Shown: in pieces, positions 4,531-33,595 of the stretch
Numbering within the stretch: the stretch's first letter is position 1
Layout of the letters: the number at the start of each line of letters is the position of its first letter
NCBI RefSeq assembly: GCF_000447795.1
Contig: NZ_AUNI01000020.1
Location: 248,001 to 312,000, forward strand
Length of the DNA: 64,000 nucleotides
Source: Bacteriovorax sp. Seq25_V
Lineage (GTDB): Bacteria; Bdellovibrionota; Bacteriovoracia; Bacteriovoracales; Bacteriovoracaceae
Reading direction: 5' to 3'
Notes under the pieces: model-generated
Databases searched by the model: none
What the model was told of the DNA's origin: nothing
What the model saw: the letters and a program-made list of their open reading frames with translations, nothing else
Position numbers and translations under genes: made by a program

Positions 4531-4705
4531 TAACTGCACCCGCGTAATGGTGTTGGAATTATCGTAAAACTAATCGCAATCGTTATGACGAAGTTTTCAT
4601 TTTCAGGAGTTCATATCATATATGAAATCTACTTTGTTATAGCTTAAATCTAGATACTTATTTTAATGATACTCAATTTCTAACACCATTCGAATGGGGC
4701 AGTTA
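4531..4705. mobile_element. Non-autonomous IS derivative (MITE-like), copy 1
   Basis: This 175-bp element has no coding capacity and is bounded by imperfect 26-bp inverted repeats at 4531-4556 and 4680-4705. Both ends start TAACTGC when read inward and end in TGGTGTT. The same ends bound the transposase-bearing element at 7803-8835 and the second copy at 33420-33595. The element abuts the TAG stop of the upstream gene directly. It also lies one base from the TGA stop of the convergent downstream gene. No clear target-site duplication is visible. Confidence 0.8.
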
Positions 4706-5354: not shown

Positions 5355-7094
5355 TTATTCTTCAAAAATCATTTTCTTCTCTTGCAAGGCCATTAATGTA
5401 TCTTTTTGGTAGAGAATACCCTCTAGAACTTGGTTTACGGGATTAACTACTGGGAGGATATCCTTTCCAGACATGAGAAAGATATTCTTGGCCCCTTCAA
5501 GAGTTGAGTTCGAAGGAATAAAGACAGTTTCTCCTATCAGAATACTTGCCGTGATTAGGGGGTCATCATCTTCTTGCGCCACAATTTTTCTAATTGATTC
5601 AAGATTAAGAGTTCCAAGAAAACAATGATTCTTGTCAACCACTGGGTAGAGTGCATAATTATCATCAATGAATGTTCTGATACTTGTGAGATTAGCGTCG
5701 GACTGAATGGCGATAATATCAGTGTGAATAAGCTCATAAATGGGACTCTTTGTCTTTTTCGGATCTTGTTCTTTTGCCGCCGTTACGTTTTCTTGAAATA
5801 ATTTTAAAATATCAAGAAGATTAAACTTTAGCTTGGTTGTCTTATCTGGAGCAGGACTCCATTGTTCAATTTCCTTTGATTTAAAAAGAGCAAACTTCAA
5901 AAGGAAAGGACCAATGATTTCAAAGATAAAAATACTTGCAACAACGGTATTGAAAATAATACTCGCTGAGGTTTCTTTATAAATCGTTACTTTTGCAACA
6001 ATCGCAAGGGCCGCCCCGGCGTGGGACATTACTGACATTCCCTGGTAATTTTTTACATTTTCATCTTTAAGGTCAACAACTTTTGCAGCAAGATAAGAGC
6101 CACTAAGAATTCCTGTCATCCTCGAAATGATATAAATGACACCAATTATTCCGACATTTTCAACAAGGCCTGAAAGCTTGATATGGGTACCAGCAAGAAC
6201 AAAGAACAGCGCATAGATCGAGCCCCCCATGTTCTTCACCGTCTCATGAATAGTCTCGCCTTCAACAGAAGCATTGGCCACGGTGAACCCAAGAAAGAGT
6301 GAAATAATAAGAGGGTCAACACTTAGATATTCAGCTAAAGACTGACCAAAAAGAATAACGGCGATAATCGCAAAGAGAATATTACCAATACGAGTTTCAT
6401 ATCTCTCAATAATCGTTAGAACAATACCAAGAATAAAGCCAAAGACAATTGAACCAAATACTTTCCAAATCGTTTTAAAAATTAAAACTGGAGAGTGGCT
6501 AAGCTTTCCTTGCCATACACCAAAGTATTCAAATCCATTCATTACCACAAGCGTAGAAACAATCGCAATTAACGTTGCAAAAGCCAGATAGATTTTAATC
6601 GAATCCGTAAGTTTTCCTTCCGCATTATATTCTTTCAACACCAGTAGCGTCGTTGGCGGTGCTGCTTCCACGGAAACAAGTGCTAAGAAGAGTGAAACGA
6701 TGAGAATCGTTGTAATGTCATAATTGCCAAGAGTGTAAAGAGAGACGATAAAGAGAGCGAAAACAAATGTGATGGTAAGGCCTACCGCCACGACAGAGTA
6801 AAGAATTTGCTCCTTCCTCATTTTCGATAATAGGGCCTTATTAAACTCACCACCAATATTAAAAAGAATCATTCCCAGGGCAAGGTCGTTAAAATATTTA
6901 AAAGAATGTGAGAAGTCTTCCGAGAGAAATTCAAGCCCTCCTGGGCCTAGCAAAACACCGAGCATGATATACCCAGAAACTTTTGGAACCCCAAGTTTCT
7001 TTGCAAGTTTCCCTATAATAAGACATAGCACCAAGGTGATACCAAGAATTGGGACCGTGCTGTTCAATGTATCGATGAGCTCACTACTAACCAC
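5355..7094 (-). CDS. CPA2-family Na+(K+)/H+ antiporter with C-terminal CBS pair
   Basis: The 579-residue membrane protein has about twelve hydrophobic segments over residues 10-400. It begins with the KefB/NapA-like LGVPKVSGYIMLGVLLGPGG block, which fits a monovalent cation/proton antiporter of the CPA2 family. Two CBS motifs follow at roughly residues 445-500 and 510-570 in the cytoplasmic tail, implying adenine-nucleotide control instead of the usual TrkA-N domain. The start is GTG. Ion specificity is not determinable. A 240-base upstream gap, shared with the divergent gene at 7335, should contain its promoter. Confidence 0.88.
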   Translation of the reverse strand: MVSSELIDTLNSTVPILGITLVLCLIIGKLAKKLGVPKVSGYIMLGVLLGPGGLEFLSEDFSHSFKYFNDLALGMILFNIGGEFNKALLSKMRKEQILYSVVAVGLTITFVFALFIVSLYTLGNYDITTILIVSLFLALVSVEAAPPTTLLVLKEYNAEGKLTDSIKIYLAFATLIAIVSTLVVMNGFEYFGVWQGKLSHSPVLIFKTIWKVFGSIVFGFILGIVLTIIERYETRIGNILFAIIAVILFGQSLAEYLSVDPLIISLFLGFTVANASVEGETIHETVKNMGGSIYALFFVLAGTHIKLSGLVENVGIIGVIYIISRMTGILSGSYLAAKVVDLKDENVKNYQGMSVMSHAGAALAIVAKVTIYKETSASIIFNTVVASIFIFEIIGPFLLKFALFKSKEIEQWSPAPDKTTKLKFNLLDILKLFQENVTAAKEQDPKKTKSPIYELIHTDIIAIQSDANLTSIRTFIDDNYALYPVVDKNHCFLGTLNLESIRKIVAQEDDDPLITASILIGETVFIPSNSTLEGAKNIFLMSGKDILPVVNPVNQVLEGILYQKDTLMALQEKKMIFEE

Positions 7095-7334
7095 AACAAT
7101 TCCTCAACCCTTTTCCGGGCTAAACTTATCATTATTTAAGCCACAAAAGCAGCTAATAATATTGTAGTTTGATTTAAGTGAAAGTTCTGCATAAAAATTA
7201 TTGTATTAAGATAACCCTGATTTAAAAGCTCTAAGTCATAGAAATCTAGACGCGTTCAGTAATACTTTTACAAAAGAGAAATAAACAATTAAACTTTTAG
7301 CGGTATCTATCTAATATTGTACAAAGAGGTTCAC

Positions 7335-7805
7335 TTGAAGCGTAAAATATTTGGCGCTTTTGTCATTCTAATCGCACTTGGTAGTATTATTACCTACCTA
7401 CTAACTCAATATACTCTCTCTCGTGGAGTAAGGGCCGGAAAGCTTGTAAAGCTCTCTCAAACAGGTATTCTTATCAAAACTTACGAAGGCACTTTGGACC
7501 TTGGAAGTGGAGACGAGCTCACATGGCAATTCTCTATTCATGATTCTGAAATTGGAGAAGAGCTTGCCAAACAAACAGGAAAGCAGGTGAGACTTGAGTA
7601 CCGAGTACTTCTTGCAAAATTATTTTTCACAACTCGTTATGATATTGTCTCTTGGTCATTAGAAGGAGATTCGCAATCGATGAATCTTCTTTGTCGACTT
7701 GTTGATTTCATGAGAGATAATGCTTCTGTAGTCGAATATCTAAGGCCAATTATTCAAGAAAGGGATCCTGAGTTACTTCGAAATATCAGGGAATGTCAAA
7801 AGTAA
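7335..7805 (+). CDS. Conserved membrane-anchored protein, C terminus altered by IS insertion
   Basis: The 156-residue protein has one N-terminal transmembrane helix (KIFGAFVILIALGSIITYLL). It is followed by SRGVRAGKLVKLSQTG and IKTYEGTLDLG, a pattern I recognise from a widespread conserved family of unknown function, often labelled misleadingly as 6-phosphogluconate dehydrogenase-like. The TTG at 7335 is preferred because AAAGAGG lies five to six bases upstream. The TAA stop at 7803-7805 is supplied by the first three bases of the insertion sequence. Joining the flanking DNA across the IS would give a few more residues (about LGPK) before a stop, so the change is small. Confidence 0.75.
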   Translation: MKRKIFGAFVILIALGSIITYLLTQYTLSRGVRAGKLVKLSQTGILIKTYEGTLDLGSGDELTWQFSIHDSEIGEELAKQTGKQVRLEYRVLLAKLFFTTRYDIVSWSLEGDSQSMNLLCRLVDFMRDNASVVEYLRPIIQERDPELLRNIRECQK

Positions 7806-8704
7806 CTGCCCCCGGGCAGTGGTGTTAGCATTCCCAAATTCTCATTGTGATAACACATATAAATTTCCAGATGTTTCCTCAAGGCATCTGGACATTTCGT
7901 CGTCCCCCATGTCTTTCTAATTAGTTTTCCAATTCCATCTCTAAGCATTGCGAAGTTATGATTCAATGTAAAAATTGGATCAAACCCTAATCTCTTTAGC
8001 TCCCCTTGACCAGTTGAACATCCTCGACCACCTATGAATTGCTGATGAGTAGCCTGTGGTAAATAAGTTCTAACCACGGAATTATAGACACTATGATCAT
8101 CAGACTGTACGAGTGCGTTTGGTTTTACACAGTTTTTGATTTCTCCAAATAAACTTCTCAACTCTCTTAGATGTTCACTCTTGCGCTTCCCATATTTTCG
8201 TCGAGATTTCTCTGCAAGCAAACCGTTCGCAGGTATTCGAGAAACTCGAAAACCAAGTATTGATCGATTCTTTGCGTTTACCACCATCGAAATCGACAAA
8301 GGTTTCATCTTAGTATGCTCAATTGTAATCAGATCATCGAATTGAATATGCTCAACTTGCTTCACGCGAAGGTATGCTCGAAAGTTCTTATTCTTTATTG
8401 CGCATCTCTTTGCATGATAATCTAGTTTTCTAGCAACTGTTTTGGGATTGATTCTCAGAACTCGTGCGATTCGATTCATCGACATCTTAGAACAAAGAAG
8501 TTCGTAGACCATGCGATTAACTCGTCTCTTCATCTGTCCTTTTGCTAGAGAAAAAGTGGAGCTTGAGAATCGAGTGCCACAACTTTTACATTTATAGCGT
8601 TGGATGATTCGAGAGTCATCACGTCGTTTGAACGTTCCATCTTTGATAATTGATTCGCGTTTTTGGTGGTAATTACAGTTTTGATTAGGGCAGCCGTGTT
8701 TCAT
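7796..8704 (-). CDS. IS1-like transposase, single fused reading frame
   Basis: The 302-residue transposase has an InsA-like zinc ribbon (C5, C10, C39, C42; YKCKSCGTRF) and a helix-turn-helix at about 70-95 (MSMNRIARVLRINPKTVARK). A DDE-type catalytic core follows, with acidic pairs at D123/D124 and D202/D203. The C-terminal FAMLRDGIGKLIRKT resembles the IS1 InsB region after its glutamate, but the position aligning with that glutamate appears to be asparagine. Unlike IS1 no frameshift is needed. The last codons (part of Tyr301, Phe302 and the TGA) lie outside the element in host DNA. The ATG is at 8704. Confidence 0.88.
   Translation of the reverse strand: MKHGCPNQNCNYHQKRESIIKDGTFKRRDDSRIIQRYKCKSCGTRFSSSTFSLAKGQMKRRVNRMVYELLCSKMSMNRIARVLRINPKTVARKLDYHAKRCAIKNKNFRAYLRVKQVEHIQFDDLITIEHTKMKPLSISMVVNAKNRSILGFRVSRIPANGLLAEKSRRKYGKRKSEHLRELRSLFGEIKNCVKPNALVQSDDHSVYNSVVRTYLPQATHQQFIGGRGCSTGQGELKRLGFDPIFTLNHNFAMLRDGIGKLIRKTWGTTKCPDALRKHLEIYMCYHNENLGMLTPLPGGSYF
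7803..7828 (+). repeat. Left terminal inverted repeat of the IS
   Basis: The repeat begins TAACTGCCCCCG and ends GGTGTTAG. It also encodes the last residues of the transposase (LPGGS) on the minus strand and provides the TAA stop for the plus-strand gene. Confidence 0.88.
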
Positions 8705-8809
8705 ACAGCTTCAAATGCAATATAAGAACAAGTTGATTCTTTGTAATTATTGAATATTATTGAGTAGATTTCGGTGCGAATTCAAAAAATGAACTTCACT
8801 ATTTTAAAT

Positions 8810-8835
8810 CTAACACCAATCCTCGGGGGCAGTTA
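8810..8835 (-). repeat. Right terminal inverted repeat of the IS
   Basis: Read inward from 8835 it begins TAACTGCCCCCGAGG and ends GGTGTTAG, differing from the left repeat at three positions. It ends two bases before the TAG stop of the small membrane-protein gene. Confidence 0.88.
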
Positions 8836-8837
8836 AG

Positions 8838-8963
8838 CTAGGCCCAAAATAAAAATGTTAAAACCGTGAGCGTGATTGGAAAAACAATAACCACACAGAA
8901 CAACAAAAGATTAAAAAAGAACCCATCTAAGCTATTATCTTTTTCTTTAATTTCTTTAGACAT
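8838..8963 (-). CDS. Small membrane protein at the end of the cbb3 operon, 41 aa
   Basis: This short gene encodes a charged N terminus (MSKEIKEKDN) and one hydrophobic helix of about 25 residues ending in LTFLFWA. The ATG at 8963 is preceded by GGAG nine bases upstream. That GGAG directly follows the stop of the SafE-like gene, so the two genes are 11 bases apart. I do not recognise the family. Position and topology suggest a small oxidase-assembly or accessory subunit, which is inference. Its TAG stop lies two bases from the right end of the IS, so the coding sequence is intact. Confidence 0.6.
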   Translation of the reverse strand: MSKEIKEKDNSLDGFFFNLLLFCVVIVFPITLTVLTFLFWA

Positions 8964-8974
8964 TTAATCGTCTC

Positions 8975-9676
8975 CTAATGACACATATGAGTGTTATAAA
9001 TATAAACCACTCGATAACCAATTGTAGAAACACCAATGATGATCAGGACAATAGGAATTGTGCGAGGTAGCTTTATTTGTAATGGTTTTAAAATTTTTTG
9101 GAAAATTTCTGGCGCAAATGTGAGAACTGGCATTGTCCCAAGCCAGAACGCGACAATGAAGGCTAGTGAGTAAATTGAGTTTGCCGCCGTGATAGAGAGA
9201 ATAAGAATAGACCAAAGAAGTCCACATGGAAGAAGAACGCTCGCGCTTCCACCGAAGAAGCTTCGAAGGATTTCTTGGTCTCTAAATTTCTTATAGAGAT
9301 TTTGCCACAGAGTAATATTTAAGTTTTCTAAAAAAGCATGCTTTGGTGTGTAGCTCTTCCACTTTAAAAGATTTTTAAGTCCGATATAAATAAATAAGCC
9401 TCCCATGATAAGGGCCCCAATGATTGAGACGGTCTTATTTCCATTTAGTCCAAGCGTTCTTAGACCTAGGAGTGGAAGAATCACTCCGATGAGCGAATAT
9501 CCAAGGAGGCGACCTATATGATAGGAGAGAACTCCTTTCTTATTTTTGGTCATGGCGACGACGAGACCACCGCACATGCCGATGCAGTGGGTACTTCCTA
9601 CGAGGCCTGAGATGAGGCCTGCGAAGATGATGAAATAAAGTGGGTGAATACTTAAATCAGTTAATTGGTCCAACAA
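8975..9676 (-). CDS. SafE/UreH-type membrane transporter (COG2836-like) in cbb3 operon
   Basis: The 233-residue protein has six or so hydrophobic segments. The first half contains STHCIGMCGGLVVAM, the conserved metal-binding-type motif of the sulfite-exporter-TauE/SafE-like family that is commonly found beside cco and copper genes. A role in copper handling for cbb3 oxidase is inferred from this context. The start is a TTG at 9676 with GAGG six bases upstream. It overlaps the end of ccoG by 20 bases, which supports translational coupling. It occupies the place where ccoH/fixH is found in many proteobacterial operons, and no ccoH is visible. Confidence 0.83.
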   Translation of the reverse strand: MLDQLTDLSIHPLYFIIFAGLISGLVGSTHCIGMCGGLVVAMTKNKKGVLSYHIGRLLGYSLIGVILPLLGLRTLGLNGNKTVSIIGALIMGGLFIYIGLKNLLKWKSYTPKHAFLENLNITLWQNLYKKFRDQEILRSFFGGSASVLLPCGLLWSILILSITAANSIYSLAFIVAFWLGTMPVLTFAPEIFQKILKPLQIKLPRTIPIVLIIIGVSTIGYRVVYIYNTHMCH

Positions 9677-11063
9677 TGGAAACCTCTCTGATTATTTCTT
9701 TGTTATTGCTTAAATCCTTAACTTTAAACTTTATCTTCTTACTTCCTTTTTCTAGAATTTCCTTCTTAAACTTTAAGAAGACGTTGACGCGGGCATGGTT
9801 CTTTTTTAGAAGATATGGATTACGTGGAACTTTTAAATCAATTCCAAGGTTCTCTTTTTCTAGTACGTCAATTTCAACTTCACGATCTTTGAGCTCACCA
9901 CTTTGATCTAGAGTGATTTGGAAGTGGTTGAGGATTTGACCTTCTTCGTTGTGCATGACTGTGTATGGAGTACCTAGACCTTTAAGGATTGTCACATTCA
10001 TATCTGTTGAAATATTCAATGAATAAATCAGACCAATAATGATGACAACAATAGCGCTTAAGTAAACCATGTTTCGAGGACGTAGGATTTTTGCTTTGTT
10101 TCCTTCGATATTTGCGAGGGAGTCGTATCGGACTAAGCCTTTGGGGCGATTTGTCTTTTCCATAATGTCGTCGCAAGCATCGATACAGTTTGTGCAGGCA
10201 ATACATTCAAGTTGCATTCCTCGTCTGATATCAATTCCTGTTGGACAGGCCTTCACGCAAGCGTAGCAGTTGACACAGTCGGCGTGTTCTTCTTTCTTCA
10301 TTCCTGGTTGACGACGAGGTTCACCGCGTTTTTCATCGTAAACAACTGTCATCGTATTCTCATCCATCATTACGGATTGAAATCTTCCATAAGGACATGC
10401 GATGATACAGAACTGTTCTCTAAACCAACCAAAGTCGAGTAGGAAGATCGTTGTGATAATAAGCATCGCAAAGAATAGGGTTTTATGTGCCATCGGCGAC
10501 TGGAGAGAAATCGCAAGTAGTTCGTGAGTTCCAACAAAGTACCCAAGGAATGTATGAGAGATATGCAAAGAGACAACAGTGAAGAGAAACCACTTTAAGC
10601 TTCTTTTCCAGATTTTTTCAAAATCCCACTTTGCTTCGTCGAGTTTTTGTCTCTGTCTTGGATTTCCTTCAACGAGTATTTCGATTTTTCTATAGATGGT
10701 ATCGATGAAAACTGTTTGCGGACAGGCCCAGCCGCACCAAACTCTACCCCAGATACTTGTGATAAATCCGATTGTGAAGACGAATCCGAGAAATAAAAAA
10801 AGTAAGAGTGGGGCGTTACTAGCAAAGAAAGAATAAGAGAAAAAAGTGAATTCTCTGTTTGCAATATCAAGTTTGATTGATTGTTTTCCTCCGATGTAAA
10901 TCCAAGGGAGAATAAGATAGATGGCTATTAAGAACCAATAGAACAGGGATCTTCTCTTTCTCCAAAAACCTTTTACTTCTTCAGGGAAAAGGAAGATCCG
11001 ATGACCTAATTCATCAGTTGTTCCAAGACGTTCTTCGTGTAGTTCAAATTTATTTTTACTCAT
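9657..11063 (-). CDS. ccoG: CcoG/RdxA/FixG cytochrome cbb3 oxidase maturation ferredoxin
   Basis: The 468-residue membrane protein has several N-terminal helices and WCGWACPQTVF and IIACPYGRFQ cysteine clusters. It also has a dicluster ferredoxin region with CVNCYACVKACPTGID and CIACTNCIDAC near the middle. A C-terminal Ig-like FixG domain follows one further helix. CcoG is a membrane Cu(II) reductase/iron-sulfur protein needed for copper delivery to cbb3 oxidase. I place the start at the ATG at 11063; an upstream in-frame GTG at 11102 lies inside an intergenic hairpin and is less likely. Confidence 0.95.
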   Translation of the reverse strand: MSKNKFELHEERLGTTDELGHRIFLFPEEVKGFWRKRRSLFYWFLIAIYLILPWIYIGGKQSIKLDIANREFTFFSYSFFASNAPLLLFLFLGFVFTIGFITSIWGRVWCGWACPQTVFIDTIYRKIEILVEGNPRQRQKLDEAKWDFEKIWKRSLKWFLFTVVSLHISHTFLGYFVGTHELLAISLQSPMAHKTLFFAMLIITTIFLLDFGWFREQFCIIACPYGRFQSVMMDENTMTVVYDEKRGEPRRQPGMKKEEHADCVNCYACVKACPTGIDIRRGMQLECIACTNCIDACDDIMEKTNRPKGLVRYDSLANIEGNKAKILRPRNMVYLSAIVVIIIGLIYSLNISTDMNVTILKGLGTPYTVMHNEEGQILNHFQITLDQSGELKDREVEIDVLEKENLGIDLKVPRNPYLLKKNHARVNVFLKFKKEILEKGSKKIKFKVKDLSNNKEIIREVSIVGPIN

Positions 11064-33419: not shown

Positions 33420-33595
33420 ATACTGCTCCCTCTGAGTGGTGTTGGATTTTAGTTCATTTTTGAAGAATTCTGTTAAACTTGCGAGTTGGTTAACTATCAC
33501 AACCTTCTGTTCGCGGCTGTTTTAACTAAGAAAGTTGATGGGACGAGCCTGTATAAAGAGTTGAAATTTCTAACACCATTCAACTGGGGCAGTTT
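33420..33595. mobile_element. Non-autonomous IS derivative (MITE-like), copy 2
   Basis: This 176-bp element ends in imperfect 26-bp inverted repeats (33420-33445 and 33570-33595). Its right end shares GAATGGTGTTAGAAATT (read inward) with the element at 4531-4705, and its left end shares TGGTGTTGGA. The interiors are not obviously alike. It occupies most of the 328-base gap between the divergent C1 peptidase and CBS genes; the remaining bases hold their promoters, which I cannot place with confidence. Confidence 0.75.

Follow-up and report, generated by a model that had tools for sequence, protein, structure and literature searches.

An insertion element with an IS1-like transposase lies mostly between converging genes, often at their stop codons, in Bacteriovorax-like genomes

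The window analyzed here is a 64,000-nucleotide stretch of the genome of Bacteriovorax sp. Seq25_V (contig NZ_AUNI01000020.1, positions 248,001 to 312,000). It contains an insertion element, the host gene that adjoins it and two miniature elements, as listed below in window coordinates.

4533-4705, unstranded: miniature element of 173 bp with the ends of the insertion element, occupying the whole space between two ORFs that converge on it (stops at -4 and -5)
7335-7805, plus strand: host gene 7335, encoding 156 aa from TTG 7335 or 162 aa from TTG 7317
7796-7803, minus strand: host bases in the transposase frame, which complete a TAC and then supply TTT TGA, adding Tyr-Phe
7796-8704, minus strand: transposase gene, 302 aa, intact
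7803-7805, plus strand: chimeric TAA stop of gene 7335, made of host T7803 and element AA 7804-7805
7804-7828, plus strand: left inverted repeat, which is the 3' end of the transposase gene and is partly self-complementary
7804-8834, unstranded: insertion element of 1031 bp with AACTG...CAGTT ends
8810-8834, minus strand: right inverted repeat
33422-33595, unstranded: miniature element of 174 bp with related ends, without an adjoining gene stop

The left inverted repeat reads AACTGCCCCCGGGCAGTGGTGTTAG from 7804, and the last bases of its partner are CAGTT, ending at 8834. The border between host and element falls between T7803 and A7804. A misplaced boundary was ruled out, as AACTG...CAGTT is shared as an end by other copies. 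The plus-strand ORF 7335 ends in GAA TGT CAA AAG TAA, with the TAA at 7803-7805, and the minus-strand ORF 8704-7796 ends in GGC AGT TAC TTT TGA, with a host TGA at 7798-7796. Both ORF ends bear out the reciprocal stop sharing between gene 7335 and the transposase that was described in a first-pass annotation of this DNA, and the transposase does leave the element in frame through the inverted repeat to stop on the host TGA, as stated there. The same annotation built the TAA of gene 7335 from the first three bases of the element. The TAA does span the junction, but T7803 is not an element base; it belongs to the host or to a shared TA, because AACTG...CAGTT is the common end in other copies.

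When the flanks were joined without the element, the site read AAAAGT|AAGCTAGG, in which T|AA gives TAA and the stop of gene 7335 is restored. Comparison of gene 7335 with its homologues, which the annotation had proposed as a check, gave the same endpoint in 6 of 6 relatives (four exactly, one at -1 and one at +2 residues). Judged from these endpoints, the element sits at the native stop codon of gene 7335, a point that had been missed. Stop sharing is minor as a statement about the transposase; the family-wide pattern of landing sites is the larger result.

The transposase combines a Zn-ribbon-like N-terminus, an HTH and an RNase H-like core, and residues D123/D124, D202 and E235 were invariant in two alignments. 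Its best NCBIfam match was NF033558 (IS1 family; 1.9e-13, residues 16-211) at 50.8 bits, which misses the curated cut-off of 100 bits. The structural model (pLDDT 80.3) had the order of strands and helices of an RNase H-like core; fold support was weak because the best PDB match, the ISCth4 transposase, reached only E 4.1e-4 and TM 0.38. No match to an IS630-type transposase was found in Pfam or NCBIfam. An RNase H-like core with an N-terminal Zn/HTH part, the combination taken to mark an IS1-type DDE enzyme, was present. By these features the element is a putative IS1-related DDE insertion sequence that falls under the curated IS1 cut-off and has an unusual landing site.

The claim that the element carries no transposase stop of its own holds for the window copy and for two other loci, L311 and L317, but not for the family. 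In a first comparison, all 24 of 24 relatives had the stop within the element, although the element ends are uncertain at two of these loci, L191 and L208; in a validation set, 32 of 34 had it there. Typically, the transposase of the relatives ends within the inverted repeat as ...CCC ATT TAA CTG GAG CAG TTT, and the repeat of the window subgroup is altered, partly self-complementary and without this internal stop. The other two loci parallel the window: at L311 the transposase ends in ...SGSS with a TAG in the host, and at L317 in ...SGS with a stop made of element T and host AA. Internal stops in other copies had been taken in advance as a sign of a misplaced boundary. This reasoning failed, since internal stops occur in the relatives, yet the boundary is correct and the window subgroup, L311 and L317 lack such a stop.

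The suggested comparison of transposase C termini thus gave mostly internal stops, with L311 and L317 resembling the window copy. Variation of the C terminus with the insertion site was observed as expected, but it is small (0-2 residues past GGS/SGS) and confined to a disordered tail. The host adds two residues to the window transposase, and tail residues 295-302 have pLDDT below 50 in the model. Given this disorder, and because relatives differ in how far the stop lies from the element end, we see no functional meaning in the tail. Which junctions close the transposase follows a simple rule that can be derived from the sequence alone. Where the host reads ...X-T|AACTG, the host gene obtains TAA from T+AA and the transposase obtains the codon T-A-complement(X), so that X = T or C closes the transposase (TAA or TAG) and X = G or A gives Tyr. 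At the window junction X is G (GT|AA) and the transposase reads on to Tyr-Phe-stop. Junctions of the form TT|AA and CT|AG close both host gene and transposase; two sister copies have TT|AA at the transposase-end junction and have frames broken upstream.

The same genome contains two more copies of the window subgroup, one on contig C11 and one on C15, and the transposase frame is broken in each. The three copies are 91.9-96.8% identical, and the window copy is the only intact member of the subgroup found. Other subgroups, with about 50% protein identity, are also housed in this genome, which contains 45 paired elements (9 full-length and 36 miniature). The copy count is a lower bound because the assembly breaks at the element, as in contigs C4, C8 and C13 of genome G000, where copies are broken off at contig ends; such incomplete copies were excluded from all counts. 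Among 129 genomes from the class, 43 had matches to the family, and no relative was found in the viral contigs searched.

The setting of the copies was scored with a crude gene caller (ORFs of at least 80 aa). In Bacteriovorax-like genomes, 47 of the 60 full-length two-sided copies lay between converging ORFs and none of the 60 between diverging genes. A gene stop was located at -14 to +1 from the element end on 88 of 125 full-length sides, and both stops were within these limits in 28/60 two-sided copies. Random intergenic positions were convergent in 189/2000 cases, had a stop near the side in 153/4000 and had both stops near in 4/2000. A stop was built across the junction on 24/125 full-length and 10/72 miniature sides, compared to 0/4000 random intergenic sides; among random genomic sides it occurred in 122/4000, where it amounts to truncation. 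The random controls come from a single genome, that of the window, of which 400 kb were scored by the code used for the copies. At L126, which has a one-base insertion in the left repeat, the correct left stop offset is -1.

A first set of 31 full-length copies comprised nine from the window's genome and 22 from named records, mostly of Bacteriovorax/Halobacteriovorax type. In this set 26 of 29 two-sided copies were convergent and 45 of 60 sides had a stop at -14 to +1; among the 33 fetched loci, those left unscored were partial copies, L208, which lacked a flank, and L212, whose repeats matched poorly. For validation, 48 loci were fetched, 10 of which were already in the first set; 34 of the 38 unseen loci were usable and four were dropped for lack of a usable repeat pair. 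Near-stop sides made up 66% (43/65), against a prediction of at least 60% set beforehand, and convergent copies 68% (21/31), two points below the predicted minimum of 70%.

For the most part, the ORFs beside the elements are real genes. A Pfam match at 1e-5 was obtained for 18/30 flanking proteins (5/10, 6/10 and 7/10 in successive batches), drawn from 45 close sides plus L133 and L114, which adjoin miniature elements. Several of the proteins have a complete C-terminal domain near the stop (DNA polymerase A to 381/381, MOFRL to 106/106). Converging genes are tightly packed in the window's genome, with a median gap of -4. In a 400 kb sample (L224-L243), 17 of 73 converging pairs overlapped by exactly 4 bp, which is the palindromic stop-stop overlap. 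Since no rve or DDE_Tnp_1 IS families that could serve as a same-genome control were found in the window's genome, the only outside baseline is the 18.3% of IS at large in convergent settings given in the accessible part of PMC9208149.

In the window's genome, a converging stop was built across the junction on 21 of 49 sides, counting sides with a converging ORF of at least 100 aa that ends within 400 bp. For seven of these 21 genes, homologues carry their own TAA, TAG or TGA and end no more than three residues away in 20/20 loci, 12 of them exactly. Because the homologue ends agree in all 20 loci, the elements lie at native stop codons, and truncation of these genes is ruled out. The OppF gene also faces its converging partner in the relative G003, where no element separates them and 9 bp lie between the stops; in the window's genome an element sits exactly between the two genes.

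The 36 paired miniature elements of this genome (152-207 bp) have the characteristics of MITEs, being short, numerous and bounded by the inverted repeats of an autonomous element of the genome. Their end pattern gave 32 matches compared to 2 for a reversed-pattern control, and 89 compared to 0 in a second search. Eight lie in convergent, 15 in tandem and 13 in divergent settings, and 18/72 miniature sides are near a stop. Since the miniatures are spread more widely, the landing-site bias is partly due to selection acting on 1-kb insertions.

The flanks also have a sequence preference. T is present at -4 in 63% of full-length and 67% of miniature ends, and A at -10 in 61% and 57%, respectively; the preference is equally strong in the miniatures, whose sides mostly lie away from a stop. 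In 13/63 full-length copies (1.05 expected), direct repeats with at least 9 of 13 matches were detected, the spacing between the AACTG and CAGTT borders being fixed at 13; this agrees with 9 bp and, on either side, two terminal bases. Stop offsets of -4/-11 in six of these 13 copies correspond to a 4-bp stop overlap within the duplicated site, and in copies without a duplication both stops are mostly at about -1 to -6. The idea that every copy has a 9-bp duplication is not supported, and among the 63 full-length copies none is visible in the window copy or most others; some duplication-free copies have sisters only 3-9% diverged.

Rejoining the flanks of the three window-type copies gave GT|AA, TT|AG and TT|AA and restored 5/5 interrupted stops, the outcome to be expected of a blunt event or one of 2 bp (TA). 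Flank joining restored the stop on 9/24 full-length and 1/10 miniature junction-stop sides, so that simple insertion fits the window subgroup but not all copies. Inverted similarity of the flanks was weak as a general rule (at least 8 of 13 in 9/63 copies, 4.0 expected). At L311 one flank is the inverted repeat of the other (11 of 13), which would be expected had the insertion struck the center of a palindrome. That G7802 is a mutation of a TTAA-ended repeat was rejected, as the outer bases vary among copies and rejoin to host stops in the window subgroup. By-eye comparison gave no match for an exchange of flanks among the three window-type copies.

We consider it probable that this is an IS1-related element whose AT-rich, partly palindromic target often coincides with head-on stops, and that its ends or its duplication keep both genes closed. 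The target of the autonomous element would be a short AT-rich, partly palindromic site with T at -4 and A at -10 of each end, often met where genes end head-on, typically at a 4-bp stop overlap (TTAA, TTAG) or a single TAA. As both element ends start with AA, a leftover host T would become TAA; where the target has been duplicated, the stop would instead come from the duplicate. Both genes would keep their native ends, and the insertion would survive with neither protein damaged. In the window, insertion would have divided the stop codon of gene 7335 into T|AA, and the transposase of the subgroup, having lost the in-repeat stop of its relatives, would borrow one from the host strand. It is somewhat less than an even bet that the preferred landing site is the palindrome of two head-on stops, a safe harbor in which the AA ends or the duplicate reclose the genes and some transposases borrow a stop; that stop codons as such are targeted is unproven.

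Selection contributes to the bias, and could in principle produce it entirely if insertion were random and only harmless convergent insertions persisted, with the AA ends widening the range of harmless positions. The tight packing of converging genes, with its frequent 4-bp overlaps, and the absence of full-length copies from divergent settings (0/60, compared to 13/36 miniatures) agree with such survivorship. Harmless positions, however, are mostly in roomy gaps. Both stops were close at only 28/1200 random positions in convergent gaps but at 28/47 convergent copies, and tight junctions are therefore preferred over roomy ones; moreover, T-4/A-10 is a sequence preference that miniatures share. 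Survivorship alone is thus unlikely. We infer that target choice as well as selection underlies the bias.

The origin of copies without visible duplication is likewise reached by inference. Small deletions would account for them if the element landed near converging ends and adjacent DNA was then lost up to the element, erasing the duplication. This would suit the stop positions of -1 to -6 in duplication-free copies and the frequent -4 and -11 in duplicated ones, but intermediate offsets are scarce, not as gradual deletion would give, and the 5/5 stops restored in the window subgroup show no sign of loss there; we regard this route as improbable. Even less credible is a lone element at a gene end whose shared stop is a coincidence of T beside AA. 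In an AT-rich genome a T often precedes AA, yet junction stops on 24/125 sides compared to 0/4000 random intergenic sides, with native ends in 20/20 homologue loci, leave almost no room for chance.

The element, as we probably have it, resembles the IS1 family (NF033558) in its Zn-binding N-terminus, HTH and DDE core. IS1 makes target duplications of 8-9 bp; in the 13 of 63 copies with direct repeats, the spacing would agree with a duplication of about 9 bp together with 2 terminal bases. It differs in scoring 50.8 bits against a cut-off of 100 and in having one 302-aa frame, and a strong stop-stop setting was not found in the IS1 texts examined. IS630 and other elements insert at TA and gain a transposase stop from the target. 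The window subgroup is like IS630 in one respect, that its transposase stop depends on the TA at the junction together with a host base, and unlike it in matching no IS630 model in Pfam/NCBIfam. IS1272 undergoes an inverted-repeat-replacing insertion without target duplication, according to the available portion of PMC5678879. Palindromic targets and many copies without duplication are shared with IS1272 as portrayed there; the weak inverted flank similarity (9/63 compared to 4.0 expected) and the lack of a matching transposase family in Pfam/NCBIfam are not. The accessible text of PMC1525189 describes IS elements inserted into REP sequences that lie where genes converge. As with these, the space between convergent genes is a harmless landing site; the target there is the REP repeat, whereas here the stop codons themselves are at the junction. 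No matching description of an IS at stop codons or convergent genes was found in the open literature, including the accessible parts of PMC9208149, PMC1525189, PMC3196728 and PMC6843628, which does not prove its absence in print.

Mobile elements must not kill their host, and a target of overlapping stops would find harmless sites without host factors. With a bias this strong in a dispersed family, targeting versus selection becomes testable. For annotation the family is a warning that gene ends and transposase ends can span element borders.

The left repeat (7805-7820, minus strand) forms a small hairpin followed by T-rich host DNA, a terminator-like arrangement of which one site is expected by chance; Rfam gave no match over 7000-9700. 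At L109 (around 2569) and L104 (around 2530), element ends adjoin other element-like ends, suggesting nested or neighboring insertions.
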